Shown: in pieces, positions 7,672 through 54,904 of the stretch
How positions within the stretch are numbered: the stretch's first letter is position 1
Layout: each line of letters begins with the position of its first letter
Assembly (NCBI GenBank): GCA_030145325.1
Contig: JAQYVW010000008.1
Coordinates: 1-64,000, forward strand
Source of the DNA: Desulfurivibrionaceae bacterium
Lineage (GTDB): Bacteria > Desulfobacterota > Desulfobulbia > Desulfobulbales > UBA5123
Length of the DNA: 64,000 nucleotides
Direction: 5' to 3'
Notes under the pieces: model-generated
What the model saw: only the letters and a program-made list of their open reading frames with translations
What the model was told of the DNA's origin: nothing
Database searches by the model: none
Translations under genes and position numbers: made by a program

Positions 7672-7974
7672 TTACTGTTGATCAAGCCGCTCCATGTAAT
7701 CCTCCCATTCCATGGGCAGCATGGTTTTCTTAAGGTTGTTGCATTCCTTGCAGGATGGAACCAGGTTATTCTTGACACTACGCCCCCCTCGCGCCAAGGG
7801 GACAAGATGATCCATGGTCAGTTCTTCCATGGCCGTCACCTGGCCACAGTAGTGACAGACCCTCTGGGCGATCTTGTTTTTCCACCAACGGGTACGGCGA
7901 AGATCTCTCGCCTTGCCCCGTTCACGACGGATAGTCGCATCATCTACGCCACTGAAGAAAAACCCGTCGTCCAT
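7672..7974 (-). CDS. HNH endonuclease-family protein
   Basis: This 100-residue protein has the compact HNH fold: a first CxxC (CHYCGQV), the catalytic block LTMDHLVPLARGGRSVKNN, and a second CxxC (CKECNNLK), so the beta-beta-alpha metal site should be intact. Such small HNH proteins cleave DNA but are often of unknown cellular role. The ATG at 7974 shares a base with the folC stop (TGATG), implying translational coupling; the track start at 7977 is GTG one codon earlier. It is the last gene of the helicase-folC operon, with only two bases to the converging pfkA. Confidence 0.85.
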   Translation of the reverse strand: MDDGFFFSGVDDATIRRERGKARDLRRTRWWKNKIAQRVCHYCGQVTAMEELTMDHLVPLARGGRSVKNNLVPSCKECNNLKKTMLPMEWEDYMERLDQQ

Positions 7975-9323
7975 CACTTAACCACTTCGCCCAAAAGAAG
8001 CTTACGGGCAGCGCCAATCAGATACAGGGAACCGGCCACCACAATCAAATCCTCAGCCGTAGCCTCTTGGGCTGCAAGATCAAGGGCCTCGGCAACGGTA
8101 TTCGCGCCGCCCGCCCGATTCTGAGCAAAATCCGGCAACAAGGCCATGAGTTGTGCGGTCTCAGCAGATCGATCGCTTTCCGGGCGGGTAAAAATAATTC
8201 GTGCGCACAGAGGAGCGATTTCAGCCAACATCGGCGCCACATCCTTATCGGCCATACTGGCCCAGACCATGATCACCCGGTGATGGGGAAAGGTGCCGGC
8301 AAGGGCTTTGCACAAAGCCTCTACCCCGGCGGGATTATGAGCGCCATCAAGGAGGTAACGGCGGAGGTTCGGATCAACGGCCAAACCTGCCGCAGACCCC
8401 GACGGGCAGGCAACCTCAACGCCAGTGGCACCATTGAGACAAAAATATTCCATCCGTCCCGGCCAGCGCACTACCGCAAGCCCCTTGCGAATCGCCTCCT
8501 CGCTCACCGGCAACTCCTGGTCCAAAGCCTCCAGGGTGGCAACCGCCAAAGCAGAATTAGCGATCTGATGAACGCCTCCCAACCTACACGGTAGACCAGC
8601 CATGGCCGCTAACTGTTCGCTTACTCCCCGATAATTCCATTCCTGCGGGCCAACCGCTACTCCGGCAAAATCTCGCCCCAACAACCGCAATGACGCGCCT
8701 CGTTCTCGGCACGCTTCTACCACCACCGCCCCGCTGGCATCATCTGCCACCGCCGACACCACCGGCACTCCAGGCTTAATCACCCCCGCCTTTTCAAAGG
8801 CCACCTCGGCCAGGGTGTTGCCAAGATACGCTTCATGATCCATGGAGACGTTGGTTATCACGCTAACCATAGGGGTAACCACATTGGTGGCATCAAGCCT
8901 GCCGCCCATCCCCACTTCAAGAATGGCTACATCAACCTCGCTCTTGGCAAACCAAAGCATGGCCACGGCAGTGGTGAACTCAAAATAGGTAATCTGCCGC
9001 TCCCCCAACACCGCACGAATTTCCGTGGCAATGGCCGCGAACTCTTCTTCGGGGATAAAGGTATCGTTGATGCGAAATCGTTCCCGTACCGAACTAAGAT
9101 GGGGCGAACTGTAAAACCCCACCCGGTATCCCGCCTCAGCAAGGATTGCCAACAAGGTCGCCGACACCGAACCCTTACCATTGGTACCGGCAACATGGAT
9201 AAAACGCAGCCGCTGTTGCGGATGCCCCACCGCGTCGAGAAAGCCGTTCATGCTCTCAAGGCCGAGTTTGATCTTAAAAAATTGCAGGTTATCGAGAAAT
9301 TGCCAAGCCTCTTGATAGTCCAT
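7974..9323 (-). CDS. folC: Bifunctional folylpolyglutamate synthase / dihydrofolate synthase
   Basis: The 449-residue protein is a Mur-ligase-type ATP-dependent ligase that adds glutamate to dihydropteroate and to folates. Evidence is the P-loop HVAGTNGKGSVSA at residues 43-55, the TYFEFTTAVA and ILEVGMGGRLDATN motifs of the central domain, ITNVSMDHEAYLG, and LLDGAHNPAGVEAL beginning the C-terminal domain. Its start overlaps the stop of the upstream helicase (TGATG) and its stop overlaps the HNH gene, so three genes are translated as a coupled unit. Confidence 0.95.
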   Translation of the reverse strand: MDYQEAWQFLDNLQFFKIKLGLESMNGFLDAVGHPQQRLRFIHVAGTNGKGSVSATLLAILAEAGYRVGFYSSPHLSSVRERFRINDTFIPEEEFAAIATEIRAVLGERQITYFEFTTAVAMLWFAKSEVDVAILEVGMGGRLDATNVVTPMVSVITNVSMDHEAYLGNTLAEVAFEKAGVIKPGVPVVSAVADDASGAVVVEACRERGASLRLLGRDFAGVAVGPQEWNYRGVSEQLAAMAGLPCRLGGVHQIANSALAVATLEALDQELPVSEEAIRKGLAVVRWPGRMEYFCLNGATGVEVACPSGSAAGLAVDPNLRRYLLDGAHNPAGVEALCKALAGTFPHHRVIMVWASMADKDVAPMLAEIAPLCARIIFTRPESDRSAETAQLMALLPDFAQNRAGGANTVAEALDLAAQEATAEDLIVVAGSLYLIGAARKLLLGEVVK

Positions 9324-11506
9324 CAGCCCACCACCTCCAGTTTGGCATAATCGAGATGCAGGGTTTTCCGGCCATGGCGAAGAAATTGCACATCCACCGA
9401 GCGCGGCGGCACCACCGCCTCAACCTTGCCCTCGCCGAAAAATGGGTGTTTCACCGCCATCCCCACCGTGAAGGTTGGGCTTGCCTTACTTTGCCTCGGT
9501 ATTTCAGGAGCCCGCGAAGCAGGCGAGCGCCGATATCCAGGCGGAGTGGTAAGGCCGCTACGGGTACTAAGCAGTCCGGGCGGTAATTCAGCTAGAAACG
9601 GGCTGAGGGTGCCCATGGAGAGCGAGCGATCGTAGCCCACCACCTGCCGAGGATAGATAAAATAAAGATTCTTCTTGGCGCGGGTGGCCGCCACATAAAG
9701 GAGCCGCCGCTCCTCTTCCAATTGATCCGGCAACTCAGCCTGCCCGGAGGGGAATTTACCTTCCACCAAATGAATAATGAACACCGCATCCCACTCCAGC
9801 CCCTTGGCAGAATGAACGGTGGAAAGAATCAAGCGGTCATCGCTGGCATCGGCTTGATGATCAACTCCGCTGTCGGGCGGATCAAGGGCGGTGGCATCAA
9901 TGAGGCTCTGTAGGTCTGGATATTCACCTAAGACCACCCGCAGCTGCTCAAGGTCGCGCATGCGGCGGGGATAATCATCGTGATATATGCGCTCAAAGAT
10001 CGGCTGGTAATATTCCATCACCAGATCAAACTGCTCCAATGGCGACAGCCCTTGCCCCAACAGGGAAACCAACAAATCCACAAGCTCGGAAAAACCTTTG
10101 CGCCAGGTGGGAGCTGCCGGATATGCCTTGAGCATGGTCAAGGGGTCATCGGCACCCTTAATGGTGCCAAGAATCTTCTGCACCGTTTTCGGACCCACCT
10201 TATCAAGGAGCAGCAACAAGCGGTTCCAGGAGAGGTGATCGCTGGGGTTGCAGGTGACCCGCAGGAATGAAAGCAGATCCTTGGTGTGCGCCGATTCAGT
10301 TAGCTTGAGCCCGCCTCGTTTTTCAAAAGGTACCTGACGATGATTAAGCTCCATCTCAAGCTTATAGGAATGAAATCCAGAGCGGAACAGCACCGCCATC
10401 TCGCGCAACGGCATCCCCTCCTGTTGATGGGCCAAAATCCGCTCCACCACAAAACGGGCCTGCTCACTTTCGTCCCTCGCCCCCATCAACACCGGCTGCT
10501 CTCCACCCTCAATGCGGCTAAACAACGACTTGGTGTAACGCTGGGCGGCCCGCTCGATCACCGCATTGGTGACGGTGAGGATGGGCTGACAAGAACGGTA
10601 GTTCTCCTCCAGGCGAATAATCTTGGTGCCAGGGAACAGATCGGGAAACTCCATGATATTTTTGAAATCTGCGCCTCGGAAACTGTAGATGGACTGCGAG
10701 TCATCCCCCACCACCATCACGTTGTCGTGGGTGTGGGCAATGGCGCGAACAATCCCGGCCTGAATGCGGTTAGTGTCCTGATACTCGTCAACCATCACAT
10801 GGCTAAAACGGTTTGAGATCTCCAGCTGCACCTCTGGGATCTCAAGAATCCGCTGCCAGTTGACCAGCAGATCGTCATAATCCATCAACCCGTGCTCAAG
10901 CTTGAACTTGCGGTAATGATCGTAAAGACGAACCAGATCATCCAAGAACTCGGCCAAATGACCAAATTCATCATCAAGAAGTTCGCCAAGGGGCGTTGAT
11001 TTATTTACTGATTTGCTGATCAGGTTAATGATCACCCGCTTGGAAGGAAAGCGCCTATTGGCAACCCCCATCGCCAACGAGGATTTGAGCAAGTTAACAA
11101 TGCCTTCGGCATCGGAACGATCAATAATGGTAAAATTGGGGGCAAAGCCAAGATGATGGCCGTAACGACGCAAGAGAAGGTTGGAAACAGCGTGAAAGGT
11201 ACCACCCATTACCCGCTGACAAGATTCGTCGATGAGGAAAGAAGCCCGGTGCAGCATCTCTTGGGCAGCTTTACGGGTAAAGGTGAGGAGAAGAATCTTC
11301 TCAGGCGCGATGCCCTGCTCGATGAGATGGGCCATCCGGTAAACCAGAGTCCGGGTCTTACCGCTACCCGCTCCGGCAATAACCAACACCGGCCCAGACA
11401 TGGTGGTGGCGGCCTGATACTGAGCCGGATTGAGATCCTGTTCACTGACCACCGGCTCGGCCTTTTGCGGCGGGGTGGCTCCCATGGGAAAAAGAGTCTG
11501 TTGCAT
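9323..11506 (-). CDS. UvrD/Rep-family superfamily 1 DNA helicase
   Basis: The roughly 727-residue 3'-5' helicase has Walker A VIAGAGSGKTRT, motif Ia LTFTRKAAQEM, motif II VDEYQDTN, motif III VVGDDSQSIYSFRGA, motif IV IIRLEENYRS, motif V STVHSAKGLEW and motif VI LYVAATRAKK. The last 50 residues (FTVGMAVKHPFFGEGKVEAV) resemble the small C-terminal module of PcrA. It should act in repair or replication restart. The track start at 11542 is a TTG; the ATG at 11506 (MQQTLFPMG) is preferred, although neither has a strong ribosome-binding site. Confidence 0.93.
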   Translation of the reverse strand: MQQTLFPMGATPPQKAEPVVSEQDLNPAQYQAATTMSGPVLVIAGAGSGKTRTLVYRMAHLIEQGIAPEKILLLTFTRKAAQEMLHRASFLIDESCQRVMGGTFHAVSNLLLRRYGHHLGFAPNFTIIDRSDAEGIVNLLKSSLAMGVANRRFPSKRVIINLISKSVNKSTPLGELLDDEFGHLAEFLDDLVRLYDHYRKFKLEHGLMDYDDLLVNWQRILEIPEVQLEISNRFSHVMVDEYQDTNRIQAGIVRAIAHTHDNVMVVGDDSQSIYSFRGADFKNIMEFPDLFPGTKIIRLEENYRSCQPILTVTNAVIERAAQRYTKSLFSRIEGGEQPVLMGARDESEQARFVVERILAHQQEGMPLREMAVLFRSGFHSYKLEMELNHRQVPFEKRGGLKLTESAHTKDLLSFLRVTCNPSDHLSWNRLLLLLDKVGPKTVQKILGTIKGADDPLTMLKAYPAAPTWRKGFSELVDLLVSLLGQGLSPLEQFDLVMEYYQPIFERIYHDDYPRRMRDLEQLRVVLGEYPDLQSLIDATALDPPDSGVDHQADASDDRLILSTVHSAKGLEWDAVFIIHLVEGKFPSGQAELPDQLEEERRLLYVAATRAKKNLYFIYPRQVVGYDRSLSMGTLSPFLAELPPGLLSTRSGLTTPPGYRRSPASRAPEIPRQSKASPTFTVGMAVKHPFFGEGKVEAVVPPRSVDVQFLRHGRKTLHLDYAKLEVVG

Positions 11507-11620
11507 GGCGGCCAATGTACCACAGAGACTATCCCCCTGCAACGCCGAAGCCCCAACATGATCTGCTCCGAGAAGGGGTCACACAAGTATTTTTTGATTT
11601 GCTAATTGACGGATTTTGAT

Positions 11621-11649
11621 TTGACGGTCACTGAAGGCCGATGTACTGT
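11621..11649 (+). promoter_or_regulatory. Putative sigma-70 promoter
   Basis: TTGACG and TACTGT are separated by 17 bases, about 75 bases before the ATG at 11725. The gene upstream is divergent, so a promoter is required here. Confidence 0.4.
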
Positions 11650-11724
11650 TACAAAGTTTTTGCTGCTAAAAATAATTTCCGATTAAACAATCACCGCCAA
11701 GTCATAAGAGCAAGAGGTGCCACC

Positions 11725-12123
11725 ATGAACAGCAACGAATTCAACAAAATTTTCAACCAACAAACGTTGGCCGAAATCTTTCCAGCCCACCGGGCCAACC
11801 AATTTTTTGAAGCCCTTTTCGGTGACGCTTCGGAAGGCGCATATGATATCAGCCTGGCCTTCATTGAACATCGCGCCACTGACAACACCCTTCTCTTCGA
11901 ACTGCAACTAAGTCAACGTCCGGGATGTTGCCTGGCCTGTAACCTTACCCATGGCCTGCCCACGGTCTTTACCCGTCATCCCATCATCAACATCAATGGC
12001 GTGGTGGCGGAGATCGACAAACTTATTGGCGACAACGTCTCCTGCAGAGATTGGCGACTGGGCGCAACCAACAGTGTCTCCAGTGCCTTGCACACCTTAC
12101 CACTGACCATCAACCTCGCCTGA
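11725..12123 (+). CDS. Conserved hypothetical protein with a Cys pair
   Basis: This 132-residue soluble protein has no recognised domain. I recall similar Deltaproteobacterial proteins carrying the same block (LFELQLSQRPGCCLACNLTHG), some labelled in databases with a misleading eukaryotic homeobox name. The start at 11725 (MNSNEFNK) is preferred to the track start because AGAGG precedes it and a promoter lies in the longer version. The CCLAC cluster could bind metal. It stands alone, divergent from the helicase operon. Confidence 0.7.
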   Translation: MNSNEFNKIFNQQTLAEIFPAHRANQFFEALFGDASEGAYDISLAFIEHRATDNTLLFELQLSQRPGCCLACNLTHGLPTVFTRHPIININGVVAEIDKLIGDNVSCRDWRLGATNSVSSALHTLPLTINLA

Positions 12124-43756: not shown

Positions 43757-44533
43757 ATGACCATGGCACCCTCTATTTCTATCCCCCCAAACTCTCCAAC
43801 CCACTGTTCTGGATATTGTCGCCGTTGCGGCAGAGATCATCTCCTCGAACAAGGCGGAAGCAGAAAAGAGGCCCTGACCCTGATGGCTGAACTTGAAAAA
43901 ATGGGCCGGATAGACCTCTTGGCCAGCGACCAAGAAGCCGACCCTCATCTTAGCCTAAACTATCTGGATGGCCCGGCCCTCGGGCAGATGTTCGGGGTTC
44001 TGGAATACCAAGCCCCAGATGGTAAGCGGGGCGTATTGCGTGCCTTTTCAGGTCAATACAACGGCAGGTGGCAGGTGGCAGGATGGGCCCCCCCTCTCTT
44101 TGCGGAAGAGATCTGGCAGGAGACAAATTACCCCATGGAGCGACAGATTAAAGCTCTTAGCCAAATCATCCAACAGCTACCCACCGACGATCTCCACCGT
44201 TTGCAACTGATTCAAAAACGCCGAGCCCTTTCACAACAACTAATGAAGGATCTCCACGCCGTCTACTGCCTCAATAATTTCCGCGGTGAAAGCAAATCCC
44301 TTGCCGATGTCTTTCTGGACAAGAAGGGCATTCCCACCGGCACCGGCGACTGTTGCGCCCCCAAACTGCTTAACTACGCCGCCCGCCATCGGCTAACTCC
44401 CCTTGGCATCAGCGAGTTTTACATGGGTCGGCAAAATCGTTCCCAGACCAAACAACATGGAGCTTTCTACCCATCTTGTTCAGGAAAGTGCCAACCCATT
44501 CTCGGTTTTCTACTCTGCGGCCTGGATGATTAA
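43757..44533 (+). CDS. Stand-alone protein like the N-terminal domain of large RluA-type pseudouridine synthases
   Basis: From memory of the family, the blocks GQMFGVLEYQAPDGKRGVLR, LRAFSGQYNGRWQVAGWAPP, GIPTGTGDCCAPKLLNYAA and FYPSCSGKCQPILGFLLCGL match the N-terminal extension of some RluA-family proteins. The 258-residue ORF stops right after GLDD, where those proteins continue into the catalytic domain. No RluA catalytic motif follows in any frame. It also has a Cys-rich head (CSGYCRRCGRDHLL). It could be an authentic one-domain protein or a truncated gene. The ribosome-binding site is weak. Confidence 0.6.
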   Translation: MTMAPSISIPPNSPTHCSGYCRRCGRDHLLEQGGSRKEALTLMAELEKMGRIDLLASDQEADPHLSLNYLDGPALGQMFGVLEYQAPDGKRGVLRAFSGQYNGRWQVAGWAPPLFAEEIWQETNYPMERQIKALSQIIQQLPTDDLHRLQLIQKRRALSQQLMKDLHAVYCLNNFRGESKSLADVFLDKKGIPTGTGDCCAPKLLNYAARHRLTPLGISEFYMGRQNRSQTKQHGAFYPSCSGKCQPILGFLLCGLDD

Positions 44534-44922: not shown

Positions 44923-44951
44923 TTGACAATTACTTATCACCTTACTAAAAA
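44923..44951 (+). promoter_or_regulatory. Sigma-70 promoter of the DUF560-FecR-cyclase block
   Basis: TTGACA and TAAAAA are separated by 17 bases, about 70 bases before the ATG at 45023. No Fur-type palindrome was seen next to it. Confidence 0.5.
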
Positions 44952-45022
44952 TATTTTCTAAGAGATCAACAATATATTTGATATAAATAAAACTAAACCG
45001 ACAGGAACAATTAGGCAAAATT

Positions 45023-46342
45023 ATGAATCGATTAATTTCGCTAACGCTTCTTTCTTTCTTATTTGTTTTCCAGGCCCATGCTGCTGATCTTGTAAGCATA
45101 GATCAATTTGGCAAAGGCAAGCAAGCTTTTGCCGTGAGCAATTATTCTGAAGCCTACGACCATTTTTACCAAGCATTCCTCCATGATCCAACCAACAAAA
45201 ACATCAATTTCTACCTGGCACGGTCTGCCTTTGAAAAGGGCGACTATGAGACTGCGGTCATGGCCTATGAACGAATTCTCCTGCAAGATCCAGAAGCATC
45301 ACGAGTAAAGCTGGAGTTAGCACGCACATACTACAAGCTCAAGTCCTACGAGATGGCCAAACAGTATTTCAAGGAGGTTCTGGCGACAAATCCACCAGAA
45401 GCCGTGTGGAGTAATATCAAAAGATTTATAACCTCCATCGACGAGGCAGACAAACGCCATTTCTTCAACGGAATGGTTACGGTGGGACTCAGTTACGATG
45501 ACAACATTCGCACGGCTCCAACCGGAGAGACAGTAAACACCATCATCGGAGATATAACTCTTACCGGCAACACCGCCACGCCAATCAAAAATTATTTATT
45601 GAATACCACCGCCGTCCTTAATCATATCTATCGTTTCGACAACAAAAAATACACCTGGAAAACCAACATTACAAATTATAATGCATTCAATGAAACCGCC
45701 AAGGATCTGGATATTAATTTCCTCGGACTCAGCACTGGGCTTGTCTACCAGAAAGAAAAATTTTTATTGCAAGGAAATGCCATCGGCAACCAAGTCGACC
45801 TTGGCTATGATCACTACCTTGGCACCTTCGGCGTGGGTGGATCTGCAACCTATGTAAATTCCCAGAAGATGCTCCTGACCCTCAACGCCACCCTACAAGA
45901 GAAAAATTTCTACCTGGACGAAGACAAAGATTCGACCAATTTTAATATTAACGGTGGGCCAATCTTTAATTTGGGCAAAACCAGGATCAGTTTCACCCTT
46001 GGGCGCGAGATAGAGAGTGCCGAAACTGAACAGAATAGCTATCAGCGCACTTCAGCCAGCCTCCGTTGCGACCAGATCCTGCCCCATGATTTTAATTTAT
46101 ATGCCAGCGTCCGCATACAGGATACTGGCTATCAGGGCATCGAAGCCCTTTTTGGCAAAACCCGCTCCGACAAAAGTAAGGATCTCTCATGCGGACTTTC
46201 CAAAACTTTATGGAATTCTAAAGACAAGAGCAACAGCATAATAGGACAAATCAGCAACACTTACACCGACATAAAATCCAATTGTGATATCTACACCTAT
46301 AGAAAAAACGTCACCGCAACTTCATTGACTTATACATTTTAA
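45023..46342 (+). CDS. DUF560/SLAM-type outer-membrane secretion protein (type XI secretion-like)
   Basis: The 439-residue protein has a signal peptide (LLSFLFVFQAHA), TPR-like helical repeats at about 25-140 (NYSEAYDHFYQAFLHDPTN, GDYETAVMAYERILLQDP, KSYEMAKQYFKEVLATNP), and a C-terminal beta-barrel from about 150 opening with MVTVGLSYDDNIRTAP and ending in Phe (TSLTYTF). This plan is that of surface lipoprotein assembly modifiers (DUF560), which move TbpB-like cargo to the cell surface. The next gene encodes a protein with TbpB-like repeats, so a secretor-cargo pair is likely. Confidence 0.8.
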   Translation: MNRLISLTLLSFLFVFQAHAADLVSIDQFGKGKQAFAVSNYSEAYDHFYQAFLHDPTNKNINFYLARSAFEKGDYETAVMAYERILLQDPEASRVKLELARTYYKLKSYEMAKQYFKEVLATNPPEAVWSNIKRFITSIDEADKRHFFNGMVTVGLSYDDNIRTAPTGETVNTIIGDITLTGNTATPIKNYLLNTTAVLNHIYRFDNKKYTWKTNITNYNAFNETAKDLDINFLGLSTGLVYQKEKFLLQGNAIGNQVDLGYDHYLGTFGVGGSATYVNSQKMLLTLNATLQEKNFYLDEDKDSTNFNINGGPIFNLGKTRISFTLGREIESAETEQNSYQRTSASLRCDQILPHDFNLYASVRIQDTGYQGIEALFGKTRSDKSKDLSCGLSKTLWNSKDKSNSIIGQISNTYTDIKSNCDIYTYRKNVTATSLTYTF

Positions 46343-46405
46343 TTTTCAGCTTAATAGCCCAATGAGGAGATCCACTCCCCATTTTTTGAAACAATGAGGC
46401 ATCTC

Positions 46406-49400
46406 ATGCATCAGAAAAAATCGACCACTGGTTCAATCCTTCTTTTGGTGGCGCTCCTGCTCTCCTGCGCCATCCCCGTTTTCGCAGCCAACTCTTCACC
46501 AGGCAAGGCTGTAGCAACAGTCGTCGCGCTGCGAGGCAAGGTTGTGGCCTTAAACACGGGCGGAGAACAGCGCCAATTGGCCATCAAGGGAAAGATATTT
46601 CAGTCAGATACAATTAAAACTGACGCCCGCGGCCGGATTCAATTCCTTTTCACCGATAACACCATCATCAGTCTCGGCCAGCGAGCGGAAATGAAAATTG
46701 ACAAGTATCAGTGGCAAAACACCTCTACTGACACCCTCAAGACCACCGTCAAGGAGGGTGCCTTCCGGGTCATGGGCGGAACTCTTGCCAAATCTACTCC
46801 GCAAAATTTCACCACCGAAACACCCAGCGCCACCATCGGCATTCGTGGCTCCATGTATGCTGGACGGGTCAAAGGGCAGATGCTTTCAGTTGTCTTTCAG
46901 GGCGGTAAGGGCATCTTTGTCCGCAACCCCGCTGGTGTAGTGGAAATCAGTAAACCCGGCTTCGGTACCCGGGTGCTCTCCCCTACCGCTGCTCCTGCCC
47001 CCCCGACAAAATTCAGCAGCGCCGAAATCAGCAAAATCAGCAATGGTGTTGATCAAGATGAACCGAAAGATGTGCCACCCGCTGAGGAAAAACCGGCGGA
47101 TCAGAAAAAAGATGATTCCCCCAGCGATAATCCACCCAGCGACAATCCCCCCAGCGATAATCCACCCAACGACAATCCACCCAGCGATAATCCACCCAGC
47201 GATAATCCACCCAGCGATCCTACGGACTGGACCGAATACCCCGACACCGGCCCTGACACCGGCCCCGACTTAGCCCCTCCTAGCTTCCCCGAGCCGCCAC
47301 CGGTTATCCCTATTCCTGATCCGCCCGAGGTGTTTGTGCCGCCTATTATTGTCACCCCCGCTTACACCGGCGCTACTCTTACGGCCACCGAGAACTATGC
47401 AACCACTCCCCCGCTGTTCACTTGGGGGCAAGACAGCCTCTCCCTGGCAGATGACCTTACCGCCATCAGCGGTAACATCACCGCCCCGGATGGCACCTTA
47501 GTGCCATTCTCCCTCCCAAGTTTCACCCCCACCGATACAACCTATAATTTTGCCAGCATTTATTCTGGATCAGATTATAGCCAAACCCAGGAAATAACCA
47601 TTCAAGGAAACAGCTTATCCTTGGATGGAATCAATTACACCGCCGACAACCTCGGGGAATTTTTCACCTATAACCGCTATTTTTACAGCGCCGATCTAAT
47701 TTTGCAGGAATTTGGCTTTGCCGGTACCCCCTCTCCCTCTGCACCCTCCACCGGCATCAACGTTTATTCCGGTACCATGACCGGTTCCTTGCAAGGCGCA
47801 GACTTTGACGACACCATCCCTGCCCTGCCAAATATCGGCGGCCTAGCCACTATCAAAACCAACTTCACCAACCACACCGTCTTCGGCTATTATCAAGATG
47901 ATCAGGATCAAGCCTCCTTCTCCACGCCCATGGAGGATGGTTTTTTCTTCGCCACCACTTCAGGCCATGATTTGACCGATATCACTTTCTTCGGTTCTGG
48001 TGAAGATTTAAACGATGACTTTGTCCTCAACATGGCCACGGCAAAATCTGCGGATTTCTACGGCAGCGCCAATCAGGGTTTCGGCTGGAGCGCAACAGGT
48101 GATGCCATTGCAACTGTCAACAACACCGACGTTGGTGATTTCAAGGTAATCGGCGCCGCGTTCCTTGAGCAAACCCTCACTGCTCCCACCACCGACAAGA
48201 CATGGAATGGTTTTGCCACTGGCTTAAGTGAATTTACCAATCTTTCGACATCCACCACCAGCTACACCATTAACAAGAACTCCAGTGATTCGGCAACCGA
48301 TCTCGTCGTCTCTTTGGGCGCAACCACCGGTTTGGTGGGCGGCTCAATCAACATGGCTGACAACGACAGCGCCAATCCATTCTCCATCAACCTTGGCACC
48401 GATGCCAGCGCCTACATCGATGACTCATGGTTTGCGGCCATGACCACCTCATCTATTTCTGCTGCCACCAAAGGCCTCTTCATCCCCGAGCTGACCGACC
48501 CTCAATGGTCACAGTATTTCACCTGGGGATGGTGGGGGTTAACCCCCTATGCAAACGGAACATCTAAAGTCGAGATGGATGGATTATGGGTTGCCGGCGA
48601 ACGATCCGCCAATCTCCCGGCAACAACCGGTTTAGCCCTCTCCGACCTGCTGGGCCAGGGAAGCGGCATCACCGGCCATTATGCAGGACAAGCCGAAGTA
48701 AATATCGGCAATGCAACGACCGGTGGATACAATGAGTATACCGGCAGCTCTGTTTTCGATATTGATTTCAGCACAAGTACATTTAATAACGGTAGCATTG
48801 ATTTCAATACCGCCAGCGGCCCTACGTTCTCCAACATCACCGGCAATGTGGACGCCAACGGCATCCATGCCACCACCCTTGATCTTGACGGCACAAGTAT
48901 GGGAGCAGCTTTTTTCGGTCTCGATGGAGATTTTTTCGGCAACGATCTTGCCGCTCTGGCTGGAAATTTCTTCGCCCAGGACTCCACTTACTACTATAGC
49001 GGCATCTTCGGTGGCGATCTTGACAGCAACGGGATTGTAATCCCGACCCCACCAAACACCTTCGCCCTCAGCGGCAACTTCATCTCAACCCTTAACAATT
49101 TCACCGATGTCCAGGAATCATGGTGGTACGGCCCCACAACCCCTCTTACAATTGATGTTAGCTCCGGTCTCCTCTCGGGGACCCTGGTGGCTCAAGACAG
49201 CACGCCCATCCCCATCAATCTATCTCTTCCTTCTTCAGTCGAGCCCACCGCAACCTATGATCCCCTGCTGGTTACATACGACGACATTGTTTCTTTCTCA
49301 ACCGACCTTACCGGTACCACCCAAACCACCGACTACTATCTCTCCTATGATAACCTGGGAGAATTCTTCACCTATAAAAGCGATCTTTTTTTTACCGAAA

Positions 49401-52400
49401 CCATAACAGATTACATGTTTACCGATTTCGGCTATGCCGGTATCCCGTCGACAACCCTTCCCACCGACGGCATTGTCAAATATTCCGGCCAGATGTCCGG
49501 AGAGATATCTAACTACACTACTGCTCCGAACATGTTTATCTGGGAAGAAGAAGACATCTTAGGCGACATGAAAATCATTGCCAATTTCAAAAACAACACC
49601 GTACTTGGCTACTTTGAGGATTGGGGAGTCGGCTTTTCGCATTTTCCAATTGAAGACGGTTTTTTCATCGGCACCATCAGCGGCACCGATGTCACCGCTA
49701 TCACCTTTGTCGCAGGTGGTAACGATTTTAACGGAACACCGCTTCTCTCCCTATCCACAACCGGCACCGCCAACTTTTTCGGCAGCGCCCAGCAGGGATT
49801 TGGCCTGTCGCTCACCGGCGACACCTATTTTGAACCGACGGCAACCCAAGTCGGCAATTTCAATCTGCTGGCCGCAGGGTTCCAGGATTCAGCCCTTGCC
49901 GCTCCGTCAGGCAGTAAATCCTGGAACGGTTTTGCCATTGAAACGGCTTATCAGTATAGCGACCTCACCGACAACACCCTGCTTAACACCTACTGGGTTG
50001 CTAATACCGATGACCTGGCAAGCAACTTCACTCTTACCTTGAACGCCGACACCGGCACGGTGGCAGGCACCATGGCCACCACCGATGCCTATGGCTCTAG
50101 CCAAACCTTATCACTTGGCGAGACCGGCTCAGTCCTTAACGCCTATATCGATGACACACATTTCCTGACCGGTATTTATTCCAGCCAAGCTGCCAACAAC
50201 CTGGGCGGACTTTTAGTAACGCAAAGAGATGAGGTGCAATGGTCCAGCTTTTTCAGCTGGGGCGAGTGGGGAGAGATTCAAGCCGATGCCACAGCCACCA
50301 CCAGCACCCAGACGCAAGGACTATGGCTTGCTGGCGAATTAAGCAACACTCTTGTCCCCACCTACCTTTCCAGCCTCCTCAGCACTGGCACTAATCTCAC
50401 CGGTAATTACCAGGGAGGAGCGACTATAATCACAAGTATTTCAGATCCAGACTATAGTATCTACTTCAATGAAGAACATATCGGAGTATCTAATTTTGAA
50501 ATAAACTTTACCAACAATTCATTTACAGGGATGATTGATTTCTCTTCTTCCTACGGTCCATACTTTGACAATATATCAGGCACCGTTAATGGAACCGGCA
50601 TCCATGCCGACAACTTGCGCGCCAACGGTGTTACCCTTGCTTCAACTGACTTTAACCTTGACGGAGATTTTTTCGGCTCGGGGCTGAATGCCCTGGGTGG
50701 CAGTTTTTGGGCCATAATTGATAGCTACGCTGTTGGCACCGGCATCTTTGGTGGCGATCTTGACAGCAACGGGATTGCCGAAACCAGCACCACCTCATCA
50801 GTGCTGGCCATGACCGGCAAGTTGAGTGGAGTTGTCACCGGCTCCGGGACCGGCTCTCCGTCACCAGCCCCTGGGATTTGGCTGGGTGATGTTACAACCG
50901 CCAGTTCCACTGACGGTACGCTGACCGGTTCCGCCGGGGTTACCGAACTTATTACTTCCGACACCGCCACCTTGGACTTTGGCTTCCTGATGGAACCATA
51001 CGATCCAACCAACACCTATTTCGAGATATTTCCAGAGGAGCAAGGTGTCACCCTTGACCGGCACGGGCTAACCATGAGCAACCTGTCGGTGCATACCGAA
51101 ACATTAGGGGAATTTGCCATCTTCTCCGGCACGGTCACTGACGGCACCGCAACTTGGAATGAATTGGGATTCGTTGGCGAAGAAACTTCGTCCACTATCC
51201 TTACCTCTCTGCCGGGAACAGACTTGATCGAGTCTTATAACGGTCATGCCCTTTACGCTATCCAAGATCAACTGGGGAACATTGGATCCGAAGCAACCGG
51301 CTTACATCTGGAATTTAACTGGCACACAGGTAAGGTCGTCGGCCTCATCAAAGAGGCAACATTTATCAACCACCCCGTCATTTTCTATGGCGACGTCTCC
51401 TCAACCGGATTGACCAATATATCCTTTTTAGGTGGGGGCATTAGCGATCATTGGGATACAACCTCAACCCCTTACGTAGTAGCTTCCTATAACGAATTAT
51501 TCTCTTTTGACGGTACCTTAGATTTCAACAGTTTCTACGGCAGTGAACATCAGGGGATCGGCGCTACGTTCTCGGGAACTACCCCGTTCATTTACGACCC
51601 CGCGGCTTCTGCCGCTGATTGGAACACAACCATTGCCGCGGTCAAGGATCCCTACTCGCCAAATACCGACTCCCTCTCTTTTACCGGTATCGACTCTTGG
51701 GAAGGATTTGCGGTGAGCGGCACAACCCTAATGAGCACCGATCCCAGTCAACTTTCGTTCACAATCGACAAAGACACCGGCCTTGTCACCTCGGGTGATC
51801 TATCTCTGCAATGCGTGCTAGGAGGGGACTTTGCCGTTAATAATGTAGAAATCGGCGGCACAAACGGCTCGGCCTATGCAAGCAATAAAGCCTTTGTGGC
51901 AGAAATGGGCTGTTCTACCAATGACTGTATTGCTACCCTTGATGACTTAGCCAACCCGATCAATGTTGGCTTGGAGGCCCTTGGCAACTACATGTTTAGC
52001 TCTCCTGATTCATTTTATGGCAACGATTACACGGCCTGGGGCTACTGGCAGGTTACCTATACTGACCCGACCACAAGCAAGGTAACCATTACCCCCGGCC
52101 TATGGACAGCAGGTCACGAGAGAACCCCGGCCACCGTGGTGCAAGGATTAATCGCCGACACTGCGCTTATCACCGGCACCTACAACGGCGAAGCACATGC
52201 CCTGCGCAACTACAGCACTTTCATTGACCGGGTTAACGGGACCTCCGACCTGACCGTTGACTTCAACGCCAGAAACGTAACCGGCACCATGGATTTTGCC
52301 GACGACCCCAATATCGGCTTCAGCGGCAGCACTCTGAATATCACCGCCACGGTTGCAGCCGATGGTTCAGGACTTACCGGCACCATCACTAACGGCGCTA

Positions 52401-52552
52401 GCAGTGTCGTCAACGGTGCCTTCTTCGGGCCAACGGCGGAAGCCATCGCTGGCAATTTCCGGGCTGAAAGTGTTATGGAAACAAACGGAGTTGATAGTGC
52501 GACCTACAATGGTATTTTTAACGGGGCACTGACCAGTGGCTCTCTGCAGTAG
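46406..52552 (+). CDS. Giant FecR-domain protein with three TbpB-like barrel repeats (putative type XI cargo)
   Basis: The 2048-residue protein has a signal peptide (ILLLVALLLSCAIPVFA; signal peptidase I cleavage after VFA is most likely, though LLSC could be a weak lipobox). A FecR domain follows (about 35-200: FQSDTIKTDARGRIQFLF, TPSATIGIRGSMYAG), then a linker of six SDNPP units. Numbering from the ATG at 46394, three tandem repeats of about 570 residues lie at roughly 331-898, 899-1478 and 1479-2052. Each has NLGEFFTY-like, FYGSANQGFG-like and W-G-W segments and ends with the motif of TbpB beta-barrel domains (DGDFFGNDLAALAGNFFA, DGDFFGSGLNALGGSFW, NGAFFGPTAEAIAGNFRA). Repeats 1 and 2 share a 37-base near-identical DNA stretch; repeat 3 is more diverged and has three Cys (CVLGG, GCSTNDC). 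The start at 46406 has GAGG eight bases upstream. Function is probably surface display; the ligand is unknown. Confidence 0.8.
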   Translation: MHQKKSTTGSILLLVALLLSCAIPVFAANSSPGKAVATVVALRGKVVALNTGGEQRQLAIKGKIFQSDTIKTDARGRIQFLFTDNTIISLGQRAEMKIDKYQWQNTSTDTLKTTVKEGAFRVMGGTLAKSTPQNFTTETPSATIGIRGSMYAGRVKGQMLSVVFQGGKGIFVRNPAGVVEISKPGFGTRVLSPTAAPAPPTKFSSAEISKISNGVDQDEPKDVPPAEEKPADQKKDDSPSDNPPSDNPPSDNPPNDNPPSDNPPSDNPPSDPTDWTEYPDTGPDTGPDLAPPSFPEPPPVIPIPDPPEVFVPPIIVTPAYTGATLTATENYATTPPLFTWGQDSLSLADDLTAISGNITAPDGTLVPFSLPSFTPTDTTYNFASIYSGSDYSQTQEITIQGNSLSLDGINYTADNLGEFFTYNRYFYSADLILQEFGFAGTPSPSAPSTGINVYSGTMTGSLQGADFDDTIPALPNIGGLATIKTNFTNHTVFGYYQDDQDQASFSTPMEDGFFFATTSGHDLTDITFFGSGEDLNDDFVLNMATAKSADFYGSANQGFGWSATGDAIATVNNTDVGDFKVIGAAFLEQTLTAPTTDKTWNGFATGLSEFTNLSTSTTSYTINKNSSDSATDLVVSLGATTGLVGGSINMADNDSANPFSINLGTDASAYIDDSWFAAMTTSSISAATKGLFIPELTDPQWSQYFTWGWWGLTPYANGTSKVEMDGLWVAGERSANLPATTGLALSDLLGQGSGITGHYAGQAEVNIGNATTGGYNEYTGSSVFDIDFSTSTFNNGSIDFNTASGPTFSNITGNVDANGIHATTLDLDGTSMGAAFFGLDGDFFGNDLAALAGNFFAQDSTYYYSGIFGGDLDSNGIVIPTPPNTFALSGNFISTLNNFTDVQESWWYGPTTPLTIDVSSGLLSGTLVAQDSTPIPINLSLPSSVEPTATYDPLLVTYDDIVSFSTDLTGTTQTTDYYLSYDNLGEFFTYKSDLFFTETITDYMFTDFGYAGIPSTTLPTDGIVKYSGQMSGEISNYTTAPNMFIWEEEDILGDMKIIANFKNNTVLGYFEDWGVGFSHFPIEDGFFIGTISGTDVTAITFVAGGNDFNGTPLLSLSTTGTANFFGSAQQGFGLSLTGDTYFEPTATQVGNFNLLAAGFQDSALAAPSGSKSWNGFAIETAYQYSDLTDNTLLNTYWVANTDDLASNFTLTLNADTGTVAGTMATTDAYGSSQTLSLGETGSVLNAYIDDTHFLTGIYSSQAANNLGGLLVTQRDEVQWSSFFSWGEWGEIQADATATTSTQTQGLWLAGELSNTLVPTYLSSLLSTGTNLTGNYQGGATIITSISDPDYSIYFNEEHIGVSNFEINFTNNSFTGMIDFSSSYGPYFDNISGTVNGTGIHADNLRANGVTLASTDFNLDGDFFGSGLNALGGSFWAIIDSYAVGTGIFGGDLDSNGIAETSTTSSVLAMTGKLSGVVTGSGTGSPSPAPGIWLGDVTTASSTDGTLTGSAGVTELITSDTATLDFGFLMEPYDPTNTYFEIFPEEQGVTLDRHGLTMSNLSVHTETLGEFAIFSGTVTDGTATWNELGFVGEETSSTILTSLPGTDLIESYNGHALYAIQDQLGNIGSEATGLHLEFNWHTGKVVGLIKEATFINHPVIFYGDVSSTGLTNISFLGGGISDHWDTTSTPYVVASYNELFSFDGTLDFNSFYGSEHQGIGATFSGTTPFIYDPAASAADWNTTIAAVKDPYSPNTDSLSFTGIDSWEGFAVSGTTLMSTDPSQLSFTIDKDTGLVTSGDLSLQCVLGGDFAVNNVEIGGTNGSAYASNKAFVAEMGCSTNDCIATLDDLANPINVGLEALGNYMFSSPDSFYGNDYTAWGYWQVTYTDPTTSKVTITPGLWTAGHERTPATVVQGLIADTALITGTYNGEAHALRNYSTFIDRVNGTSDLTVDFNARNVTGTMDFADDPNIGFSGSTLNITATVAADGSGLTGTITNGASSVVNGAFFGPTAEAIAGNFRAESVMETNGVDSATYNGIFNGALTSGSLQ
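47123..47212 (+). repeat. Six tandem 15-bp units encoding SDNPP
   Basis: Units of AGCGATAATCCACCC, with few substitutions, run for six copies and a partial seventh. They form the Pro/Asp linker between the FecR domain and the repeats. The multiple-of-three length means copy number can change without frameshift. Confidence 0.9.
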
Positions 52553-52660: not shown

Positions 52661-54904
52661 ATGTTTTTTCACATAATAAAAAAACTGCTGGTGCCAACAC
52701 CATTCAAAATAGGGTTCCTCGTTGTTATTGTCGCCGCCCTTACCTACTACTCTTTCGGCACCCAAAAACCTGAGATCATCACCTCACTGGACAATCGTAT
52801 TATCGATGCCATGTTTCTCTGGCGGGGCGCACAAGATACTACTGACTCAGTGGTGATTGTCGATATCGATGAGAAAAGCCTTAAACAACTGGGGCAATGG
52901 CCATGGCCACGGGATACCGTTGCCAAACTGGTCTCAAATCTTCAAGCAGGCGGGGCAAAGGTAATCGGCCTAGATATCGTTTTCGCCGAGCCGGATCGGA
53001 CCTCGCCTAAAGAATTTGTCGATCAGCTGGGAAATTATCTGCACGGAGAGGTTCCCGCCGCGACCCTGCAACGTCTGCGGGATGACCCTACCATTGATCA
53101 TGACCTTATCTTGGGCCAGGCAGTCAGCACTGGTCACACCGTCCTAGGCTATGTTTTTCAAACCACCGACGACGGACTAAAAACAGCCTATGACCAACCT
53201 TTTCCCGCAGCCATTATCAGGGGCTTGCCAACCGGGGACACATACGACCAATTAGCCATTTACAAAGCTTATCGTGCCATCATTAATGTAGCCGAGGTAG
53301 CCCAGGCGGAAAGCGAAGGATTTTTCAATGTTTTCCCAGATGCCTCAGGTACGGTTCGCATGGTGCCCCTCCTCATGACCATGGACGGAATCCCTTACCC
53401 TTCCCTGGCTCTTGAAATGGTCAGAATCGGCATGAACAAAGACACAATAAAACTTCATCCCTCCCAACAAATCAGAGATAGGCAACGTGGCCTACTGGGG
53501 GTCAGCGTCGGCAAAAGCTATATACCCACCAATAACCGCGGCCAAATGACGGTTAATTTTCGTGGTTCAAATAAAACCTTCCCCTATCTTTCCGCCATTG
53601 ACATTATCAACGGCAAAGAACTCAACCGAGTTCGCAACAAATACGTTTTGATCGGTACTTCTGCGGCTGGCATCCTTGATCTCCGGGCCACGCCCTTTTC
53701 CAATGTTTTCCCCGGCGTCGAGGTCCATGCCAACGTTATAGACAACGTCCTGGCCGGAGATCCGTTTGTTTTCGATCTCCTCACTGAGATCGGCATTACC
53801 TATCTGCTCATTGTTCTTGGTGGCCTTTTTCTCGTTGCCCTCCTTGCATTCAGTAGTCCGCTGGCTGGCGGTTTGGGTGGCTTCTTATTGCTGGAAGCTA
53901 CCATTATTGGCAATTACCATTATTTATTTCTACATAACAAGATCATCGGCATCACCTACCCGCTACTAACCATTATCATCATTTTTATGATCGTAACCCT
54001 CTTCAACTACTTCTTTGAAGGCCGCGAGAAGAAGTTCATCAGCCATGCCTTCGGTCATTATGTTTCGCCGCAAGTGGTCAAAAAGTTGATGGCCCATCCG
54101 GAAAATCTTGCTCTGGCCGGTGAAGAAAAAACTTTGACCGTGCTCTTCAGCGACATCCGGGGCTTCACCACCATTTCCGAATCAATGAGTTCCACCCAAC
54201 TGGCTCTGTTTATGAATCGCTATCTCACCGCCATGAGTTCGGTAATCATGCAATGCCAAGGGACGGTGGACAAATTTATCGGCGACGCGATCATGGCAAT
54301 ATGGGGCGCTCCCCTTGATGACCATGACCATGCCGCCAATGCGGTACGATCAGCCCTAGGGATGATGGAGAAACTACGTGAAAAACAACCACAATGGCAA
54401 GCCGAGGGAATCCCGGCCATTGATATCGGCATCGGTATCAACACCGGCACCATGAGTGTCGGCAACTTTGGCAGCGCCGAACGGTTCGACTATACGGTAC
54501 TGGGTGACGCCGTCAATCTCGGCGCTCGTCTGGAAGGATCCAACAAGACATACGGCACCAACATCATTATCTCCCAATACACCCTCACAGAACTGGGCGA
54601 CCGGTTTTTCTGCCGCTTTATTGATATGGTAAAAGTAAAGGGGAAACTAAAACCGGTTAAAATATACGAACCGTTGACCGAGGGTGAACCCAGCGAAGAG
54701 TTACGCCGGGAAGTAGCAGTATTTGAAGAGGCGATGGAGGAATATCACTGCCAAAACTTTGCCAAGGCAGCAACAATTATTAACGAATTACACGAAACCA
54801 ACCCCAGCAAGCTTTATTGCCTTTACCGTGATCGGATCAGGAAATATCAGAAAACTCCACCACCGCCAGACTGGGACGGCTCTTTCACCTTCACATCGAA
54901 ATAA
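52661..54904 (+). CDS. CHASE2-domain class III adenylate cyclase
   Basis: The 747-residue protein has an N-terminal TM helix (residues 15-32), a CHASE2 sensor domain (about 40-365; VVIVDIDEKSLKQLGQWPWPR, KYVLIGTSAAGILDLRATPF), three closely spaced TM helices (about 378-450) and a cyclase domain. The metal Asp residues are in FSDIRGFT (497-504) and GDAIMAIWG; the purine-site Lys is in VDKFIGD, and Thr in FDYTVLGDAVNLG fits adenylate rather than guanylate cyclase. It should sense an extracytoplasmic signal and make cAMP. It is about 110 bases after the FecR giant gene, a pairing common for CHASE2 cyclases. The start lacks a clear ribosome-binding site. Confidence 0.9.
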   Translation: MFFHIIKKLLVPTPFKIGFLVVIVAALTYYSFGTQKPEIITSLDNRIIDAMFLWRGAQDTTDSVVIVDIDEKSLKQLGQWPWPRDTVAKLVSNLQAGGAKVIGLDIVFAEPDRTSPKEFVDQLGNYLHGEVPAATLQRLRDDPTIDHDLILGQAVSTGHTVLGYVFQTTDDGLKTAYDQPFPAAIIRGLPTGDTYDQLAIYKAYRAIINVAEVAQAESEGFFNVFPDASGTVRMVPLLMTMDGIPYPSLALEMVRIGMNKDTIKLHPSQQIRDRQRGLLGVSVGKSYIPTNNRGQMTVNFRGSNKTFPYLSAIDIINGKELNRVRNKYVLIGTSAAGILDLRATPFSNVFPGVEVHANVIDNVLAGDPFVFDLLTEIGITYLLIVLGGLFLVALLAFSSPLAGGLGGFLLLEATIIGNYHYLFLHNKIIGITYPLLTIIIIFMIVTLFNYFFEGREKKFISHAFGHYVSPQVVKKLMAHPENLALAGEEKTLTVLFSDIRGFTTISESMSSTQLALFMNRYLTAMSSVIMQCQGTVDKFIGDAIMAIWGAPLDDHDHAANAVRSALGMMEKLREKQPQWQAEGIPAIDIGIGINTGTMSVGNFGSAERFDYTVLGDAVNLGARLEGSNKTYGTNIIISQYTLTELGDRFFCRFIDMVKVKGKLKPVKIYEPLTEGEPSEELRREVAVFEEAMEEYHCQNFAKAATIINELHETNPSKLYCLYRDRIRKYQKTPPPPDWDGSFTFTSK

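Follow-up and report, generated by a model that had tools for sequence, protein, structure and literature searches.

Type XI secretion is mediated by outer-membrane translocons of the Slam (DUF560) type, for which TbpB barrels are the known recognition element (PMC12282271, PMC9090332). Slam cargo is thought to be recognised via a C-terminal motif (PMC9090332), and multi-TbpBBD cargoes with two to three handle-barrel pairs have been described among the surface proteins of Sphingomonas and Psychrobacter (PMC12282271). In adhesins of the LapA and CdrA types, a retention module stays periplasmic and thereby keeps the adhesin lodged in the conduit through which it crosses the outer membrane (PMC13090378). 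In S. meliloti, CHASE2 cyclases respond to a protein signal through the outer-membrane beta-barrel NsrA (PMC7529298, PMC13001267), and a construct lacking CHASE2 makes cyclic AMP (cAMP) constitutively (PMC5498481). Finally, a Campylobacterota cluster encodes a CHASE2 cyclase, a phosphodiesterase, a FecR outer-membrane protein and a TPR protein, which were proposed to form one signalling pathway (PMC9239204). Here, we analyzed a stretch of 64,000 nucleotides from a Desulfurivibrionaceae bacterium (contig JAQYVW010000008.1, positions 1 to 64,000), referred to as the window, in which a cassette of three genes on the + strand encodes a Slam/DUF560 translocon, a FecR-TbpB cargo and a CHASE2-domain class III adenylate cyclase.

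Sequence evidence supports well what the three proteins are, that their genes cluster in a conserved way and that the cargo has the TbpB fold; export by Slam, a hold in the periplasm, signalling to the cyclase and any ligand at the surface are inferred. Our interpretation, for which we judge the case to be evenly balanced, is that the cassette encodes a transenvelope receptor assembled by the type XI route, with a FecR plug and a cyclase relay. Slam would recognise the C-terminal TbpB-like barrel of the 2052-amino acid cargo and thread its three TbpB-like modules across the outer membrane so that they are displayed on the cell. The FecR domain would reach the pore last, in a folded state, and would therefore stay behind on the periplasmic side as a retention plug, while the Pro-rich linker occupies the pore of Slam. 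Such a plug would follow the logic of the LapA/MpAFP retention module, applied to a probably non-lipidated Slam cargo. Located beside the TPR domain of Slam, FecR would face the CHASE2 sensor of the co-encoded cyclase, and binding or pulling at the surface modules would be reported as cAMP. With somewhat less confidence, we propose more generally that the type XI route is used here not to secrete but to build an outer-membrane-spanning receptor that signals as cAMP via a CHASE2 cyclase. NsrA, an outer-membrane barrel that passes a surface signal to CHASE2 cyclases, provides a precedent for the receptor interpretation (PMC7529298, PMC13001267).

The first gene of the cassette (45023-46342, +) encodes 439 amino acids with a signal peptide, TPR helices (residues ~32-140) and a 14-strand barrel (residues ~146-439). 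An earlier note on this DNA, made from the sequence alone, had described this open reading frame (ORF) as a TPR protein with a DUF560-type barrel, which our analysis supports. Its product matches SlipAM (PF04575) with 37.1 bits against a cut-off of 22 over residues 152-439, Pfam also detects TPR repeats and TPR_Slam, and the AlphaFold model, with a pLDDT (predicted local distance difference test) of 92.9, consists of TPR helices followed by 14 long strands. The closest solved folds of this model are 14-strand porin-type barrels and TPR-linked polysaccharide exporters, including the BcsC type; none of the 50 Protein Data Bank (PDB) matches listed was recognised as a Slam. The fold alone hence does not separate these families, whereas the Pfam score does. 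The protein's identity as a DUF560/SlipAM translocon is supported by this score, and co-occurrence is the line of evidence suggesting that it moves a TbpB-type protein to the surface.

The adjoining giant ORF (46394-52552, +) encodes 2052 amino acids from its first ATG, or 2048, the length given in the earlier note, when counted from Met5; both ORFs lie where that note had placed them. A signal peptide, a FecR domain and an (SDNPP)n linker precede three homologous modules of ~570 amino acids: module 1 (residues 320-885, 47351-49048, +), module 2 (residues 885-1465, 49046-50788, +) and module 3 (residues 1465-2052, 50786-52549, +), with C-terminal TbpB barrels at residues 710-876, 1288-1456 and 1881-2046, respectively, the last being the probable Slam-targeting barrel. 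Pfam assigns 62.2 bits to TbpB_B_D (PF01298) over three stretches, and the NCBIfam model "Slam-dependent surface lipoprotein" scores 75.7 bits, slightly below its cut-off of 80. The modules are homologous end to end, with 38% identity between modules 1 and 2 (E about 1e-84) and 26% between modules 1 and 3 (E about 1e-15), and each of them closes with the D/N-G-x-FFG...AGNF motif, exactly as had been read from the sequence. Across end-to-end alignments, identities range from 25 to 38%, and with such divergence the modules are no duplication introduced during assembly.

The TbpB-like nature of the modules is backed by Pfam and a profile at the sequence level, and by predicted fold for module 3. 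The sole phmmer match of the cargo in the PDB is the C-terminal barrel of NHBA (Gna2132; E 6e-7), and a profile of the modules retrieves TbpB, LbpB, NHBA and hemophilin from sequence alone. Modelled from 38 related modules taken from the window and from fetched loci of relatives, module 3 is almost all-beta (pLDDT 85.9, predicted template modelling score 0.89). Its best 22 Foldseek matches in the PDB are all approximately full-length TbpB or LbpB chains (534-652 aligned columns, E 2e-11 to 6e-8); next in rank come the NHBA barrel (template modelling score, TM, 0.74-0.76), the LbpB N-lobe, the TbpB C-lobe, hemophilin, HpuA and factor H binding protein. Despite alignment of the whole module at E 2e-11, the global TM against two-lobed TbpB is low (~0.25), indicating either another arrangement of the lobes or an uncertain placement of them, and we therefore call the modules TbpB-like over their length. 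When the profiles of a module's halves were compared with each other, no clear homology was seen (hhalign 16%). This refines the view of one TbpB-like barrel per repeat: each module does carry a C-terminal barrel, yet in its ~570 residues it probably resembles a whole two-lobed TbpB rather than a single barrel.

The third gene (52661-54904, +) starts 108 bp past the cargo gene, and no terminator-like site was found on the + strand between the Slam, cargo and cyclase genes. Its product scores 213.8 bits for CHASE2 and 76.1 bits for Guanylate_cyc in Pfam, and the metal and transition-state motifs of the cyclase are present. The earlier note had not linked this adjacent cyclase to the other two genes; the survey of relatives identifies it as part of a conserved unit. 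Of 96 genomes that share at least the order with the window, 25 have TbpB_B_D, 29 SlipAM and 68 CHASE2. Slam is present in all 25 genomes with TbpB, and TbpB is absent from all 67 genomes that lack Slam (Fisher p 3e-19, uncorrected for species relatedness). A CHASE2 gene lies on the same strand within 1 kb downstream of 24 of the 27 TbpB ORFs. Scanning genome contigs with a single sequence returned no matches, and an alignment-based scan recovered 62 named loci, in Desulfurivibrio, Desulfobulbaceae, Desulfobacula, Desulfobacterium, Syntrophaceae, Sulfurospirillum, a metagenome-assembled genome (MAG) of Helicobacteraceae and MAGs that bear the labels Planctomycetota and Lentisphaerae. Most loci of sufficient length have the genes for Slam, FecR-TbpB and CHASE2 cyclase in this order, and the cassette recurs in Desulfobulbales, Desulfobacula, Syntrophaceae, Campylobacterota and some MAGs with labels from the PVC (Planctomycetota-Verrucomicrobiota-Chlamydiota) group. 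The Slam and TbpB identities, their co-occurrence, the adjacency of CHASE2 and this gene order recurring across several classes are the first grounds on which a type XI receptor is proposed.

Cargo architecture varies among these loci. Relatives usually encode 650-1000 amino acids with one detected barrel, the smallest cargo (L040, 397 amino acids) consisting of FecR, linker and one barrel. Two barrels occur in L096/L097 and two were detected in the 2128-amino acid cargo of L092, compared with three in the window, and in L060 and L104 one Slam accompanies two cargoes each. Of the conserved pairing of DUF560 with FecR multi-repeat proteins envisaged earlier, the pairing itself recurs; most relatives have one module.

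In the receptor model, the N-terminal part of the cargo would hold it in the periplasm. The FecR domain (residues 27-200, 46472-46993, +), whose presence together with that of the SDNPP linker had been recognised from the letters, scores 28.4 bits against a cut-off of 24 for PF04773, and no other part of the cargo is as conserved. Among solved structures, a profile search relates it only to PDB 5ix9, an "Antifreeze protein" chain (E 8e-7), which is the N-terminal cell-anchoring (retention) region of the MpAFP adhesin. The LapA retention-module profile NF033682 matches 26 of 27 FecR members at E <= 0.01; for the window domain it gives 29.7 bits, below the cut-off of 50, so that the domain is considered related to this family and not assigned to it. 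The FecR domain occupies the N-terminal position in the cargo and, if Slam recognises the C-terminus, would be a folded domain that comes last and could jam the pore likewise. Its homology to a retention domain lends indirect support to the suggestion of the earlier note that the FecR part may be left in the periplasm. The Pro/Asp/Ser-rich linker that follows (residues 201-319, 46994-47350, +) includes the (SDNPP)n stretch, encoded by 6.6 copies of a 15-bp tandem repeat (47120-47218), and in every relative examined small and polar residues are abundant in the 90 amino acids after FecR.

The main alternative is an ordinary type XI cargo, exported whole with its FecR domain and then lipid-anchored or released, FecR being an adhesion or peptidoglycan-type domain and the cyclase merely co-regulated. 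This is consistent with the view that known Slam cargo is transported over its entire length (PMC9090332) and with FecR-like domains in Leptospira surface proteins (NF047849 Lsa33, NF033165 LipL45). The hydrophobic segment of the window protein's Sec signal peptide (residues 1-31, 46394-46486, +) also contains a lipobox-like LLSC, which is followed by a good VFA|AN cleavage site. However, a PROSITE-type lipobox occurs in only 2 of 56 distinct N-termini of the cargo family, the window protein being one of the two, which indicates that the family as a whole is probably non-lipidated. Hemophilin-type Slam cargo is soluble, and a lipoprotein signal is not required for TbpB-type cargo.

Rates of change speak against whole export as well. 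In a comparison of 31 complete cassettes, pairwise identity averages 55% for the TPR domain of Slam, 54% for FecR, 54% for CHASE2 and 60% for the cyclase domain; the diverging parts are the Slam barrel (38%), the C-terminal barrel (41%) and the middle of the module (31%). FecR is thus far more conserved than the modules, and its distances correlate with those of CHASE2 (0.87), as do those of TPR (0.90) and, less so, of the C-terminal barrel (0.59), shared ancestry contributing to all three values. This pattern fits conserved periplasmic contacts combined with a fast-changing surface part. Since FecR-CHASE2 pairing, in addition, occurs without any TbpB or Slam barrel (PMC5192318), we regard export of the whole protein as unlikely, albeit the best placed of the alternatives. 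In favour of the retained receptor stand the relationship of FecR to a retention domain, the conservation of TPR, FecR and CHASE2, which all face the periplasm in the model, and the co-variation of TPR with CHASE2.

Loci lacking barrels bear on a second alternative, a periplasmic ligand-sensing complex in which the Slam-like barrel serves as channel or sensor, nothing is exported and the TbpB-like modules remain periplasmic, the barrels having been added to an old TPR, FecR and CHASE2 unit. On rhizobial plasmids, FecR lies near CHASE2 cyclases in the absence of Slam and TbpB, and in one case a TPR gene in between makes up a barrel-less TPR, FecR and CHASE2 cyclase cluster of Rhizobiaceae, which favours this alternative. 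It also draws on the Campylobacterota clusters, described just as FecR outer-membrane protein, TPR protein and CHASE2 cyclase (PMC9239204), and on the polysaccharide-exporting BcsC-type TPR barrels among the nearest solved folds of the Slam model. Against it, TbpB barrels are confined to Slam-bearing genomes in the survey of relatives, and they are the element by which this translocon is known to recognise its cargo (PMC12282271, PMC9090332). Moreover, in L110, L111, L113 and L115, paralogous pairs consist of a TPR protein without barrel (139-158 amino acids) and a FecR protein without TbpB (324-367 amino acids), both barrels being absent together. We consider such a complex rather improbable. 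The simplest reading of the barrel-less sets and of the jointly missing barrels is that an old TPR/FecR/CHASE2 signalling unit was later given a matched Slam barrel and TbpB barrel, L084 being an exception. The joint absence of barrels in the paralogues also supports the exported and retained receptor, as does the TbpB cargo of L042, which lacks FecR and lies beside Slam with no CHASE2 neighbour.

Very improbable is a LapA-like regulated release, in which a periplasmic protease would cut the FecR-linker junction and shed the modules: although the retention module released by LapG is a homologue of FecR (PMC13090378), no LapG (PF06035) was found in this genome, which makes LapG-type release unlikely, no [T/A/P]AAG motif is seen at the junction, and the conserved partner is a cyclase and not LapD/LapG.

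Several points nevertheless weigh against the retained receptor. FecR could be exported too, as classical Slam cargo sends its N-terminus to the surface, and the C-terminus-first order is an assumption of the model. Given the LLSC in its signal peptide, the window cargo may be lipidated. L084 has Slam and the cyclase together with a FecR protein that lacks a barrel, and the gene for the cargo of L033/L092 (2128 amino acids) is not directly followed by a cyclase gene. Perception of the plant signal that activates CHASE2 cyclases in S. meliloti did not require the FecR protein SMc02177 (PMC5498481).

Other observations concern the surroundings of these genes. In L110 (2251-9530) and L113 (9866-18897), TPR and barrel-less FecR pairs lie directly upstream of giant proteins of 1900 (DUF4347) and 2474 amino acids, respectively, both with a LEPRIMFD N-terminus, hinting that such pairs serve other secreted giants too. 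The L042 cargo (9187-11769, -, 860 amino acids; Slam at 7858-9174) carries weak lipase/esterase matches (Mbeg1-like, Lipase_3) and a GHSLGGG motif ahead of its C-terminal TbpB barrel and is possibly a Slam-exported hydrolase. Closely related Slam genes in Planctomycetota- or Lentisphaerae-labelled MAGs (L085, with the whole cassette, L091 and L099) would reflect either horizontal transfer or mis-binned contigs. An apparent FecR-CHASE2 fusion of 1230 amino acids in L069, which would have argued strongly for direct contact, proved to be an N-filled scaffold gap and was discarded. In the window's own genome, further CHASE2 cyclases lie near other FecR proteins without Slam or TbpB (L123:2-3613 and L124, contigs C58 and C8); one of these FecR proteins, of 1203 amino acids with no other Pfam match, is perhaps a FecR-barrel receptor like NsrA. 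Within the window, a weak sigma-70-like promoter match (44923-44952, +) lies upstream of the Slam gene, and a 258-amino acid ORF upstream of the cassette (43757-44533, +) has no Pfam match at E 0.001 and is possibly a decayed gene. The only OmpH/Skp-like gene found in the genome (57346-57906, -) lies 2.4 kb beyond the cyclase. In Neisseria, TbpB export by Slam requires Skp; a linkage of Skp to the cassette was dropped, as it is not seen in the other fetched cassette loci.

If the receptor is real, signalling at the cell surface would have a new class, one that is widely distributed among Desulfobacterota and also has members in Campylobacterota. It would extend type XI secretion well beyond host-associated Proteobacteria, tie it to second-messenger signalling and suggest retention by an N-terminal FecR/retention-module-type domain as a general device for type I, type Vb and type XI secretion systems. 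What CHASE2 domains sense also becomes testable, since the gene beside the cyclase probably encodes its upstream partner.

The combination of a type XI cargo, a retention-type domain fused to it and a cAMP sensor linked to it by gene order appears undescribed. Two surveys of type XI secretion, from 2021 and 2025, mention neither FecR nor cyclases nor Desulfo- organisms in their main texts, and a combined literature search, covering few subscription journals, returned no paper joining Slam with FecR or CHASE2. The new cargo architecture announced in the earlier note accordingly stands for the FecR fusion, missing from both surveys, and not for tandem repetition alone, since TbpB cargoes with two to three copies were already published (PMC12282271).

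Like type XI systems with TbpB-family cargo (TbpB, LbpB, HpuA, fHbp, hemophilin), the cassette places a translocon with TPR and a 14-strand barrel beside a cargo with a C-terminal TbpB-type barrel, and its module matches TbpB over its length. It differs in the FecR domain and polar linker at the start of the cargo, in the probable lack of lipidation in most members, in having up to three modules, in the co-encoded CHASE2 cyclase and in its distribution, mostly in Desulfobacterota. Compared with the multi-TbpBBD cargoes of Sphingomonas and Psychrobacter, for which no FecR or cyclase partner is mentioned (PMC12282271), the ~570-amino acid repeats each resemble a two-lobed unit. The LapA/MpAFP adhesins of type I secretion have an N-terminal domain related to this FecR that stays periplasmic and holds the surface part in an outer-membrane pore, and CdrA of P. 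aeruginosa (type Vb) is likened to it for its retention logic only; here, in contrast, the conduit is Slam, the cargo is much shorter, LapG was not found in the genome and the partner is linked to cAMP instead of cyclic di-GMP. In the S. meliloti NsrA-CyaK/CyaD1/CyaD2 system, an outer-membrane beta-barrel likewise senses a surface ligand and activates CHASE2 adenylate cyclases, but NsrA is itself the barrel receptor and no Slam or TbpB cargo is described there. As loci L107 and L112 suggest, some of the Campylobacterota clusters (PMC9239204) are probably the same cassette under other names; Slam and TbpB are not mentioned in the available part of that report, and their connection with type XI secretion is a new one.

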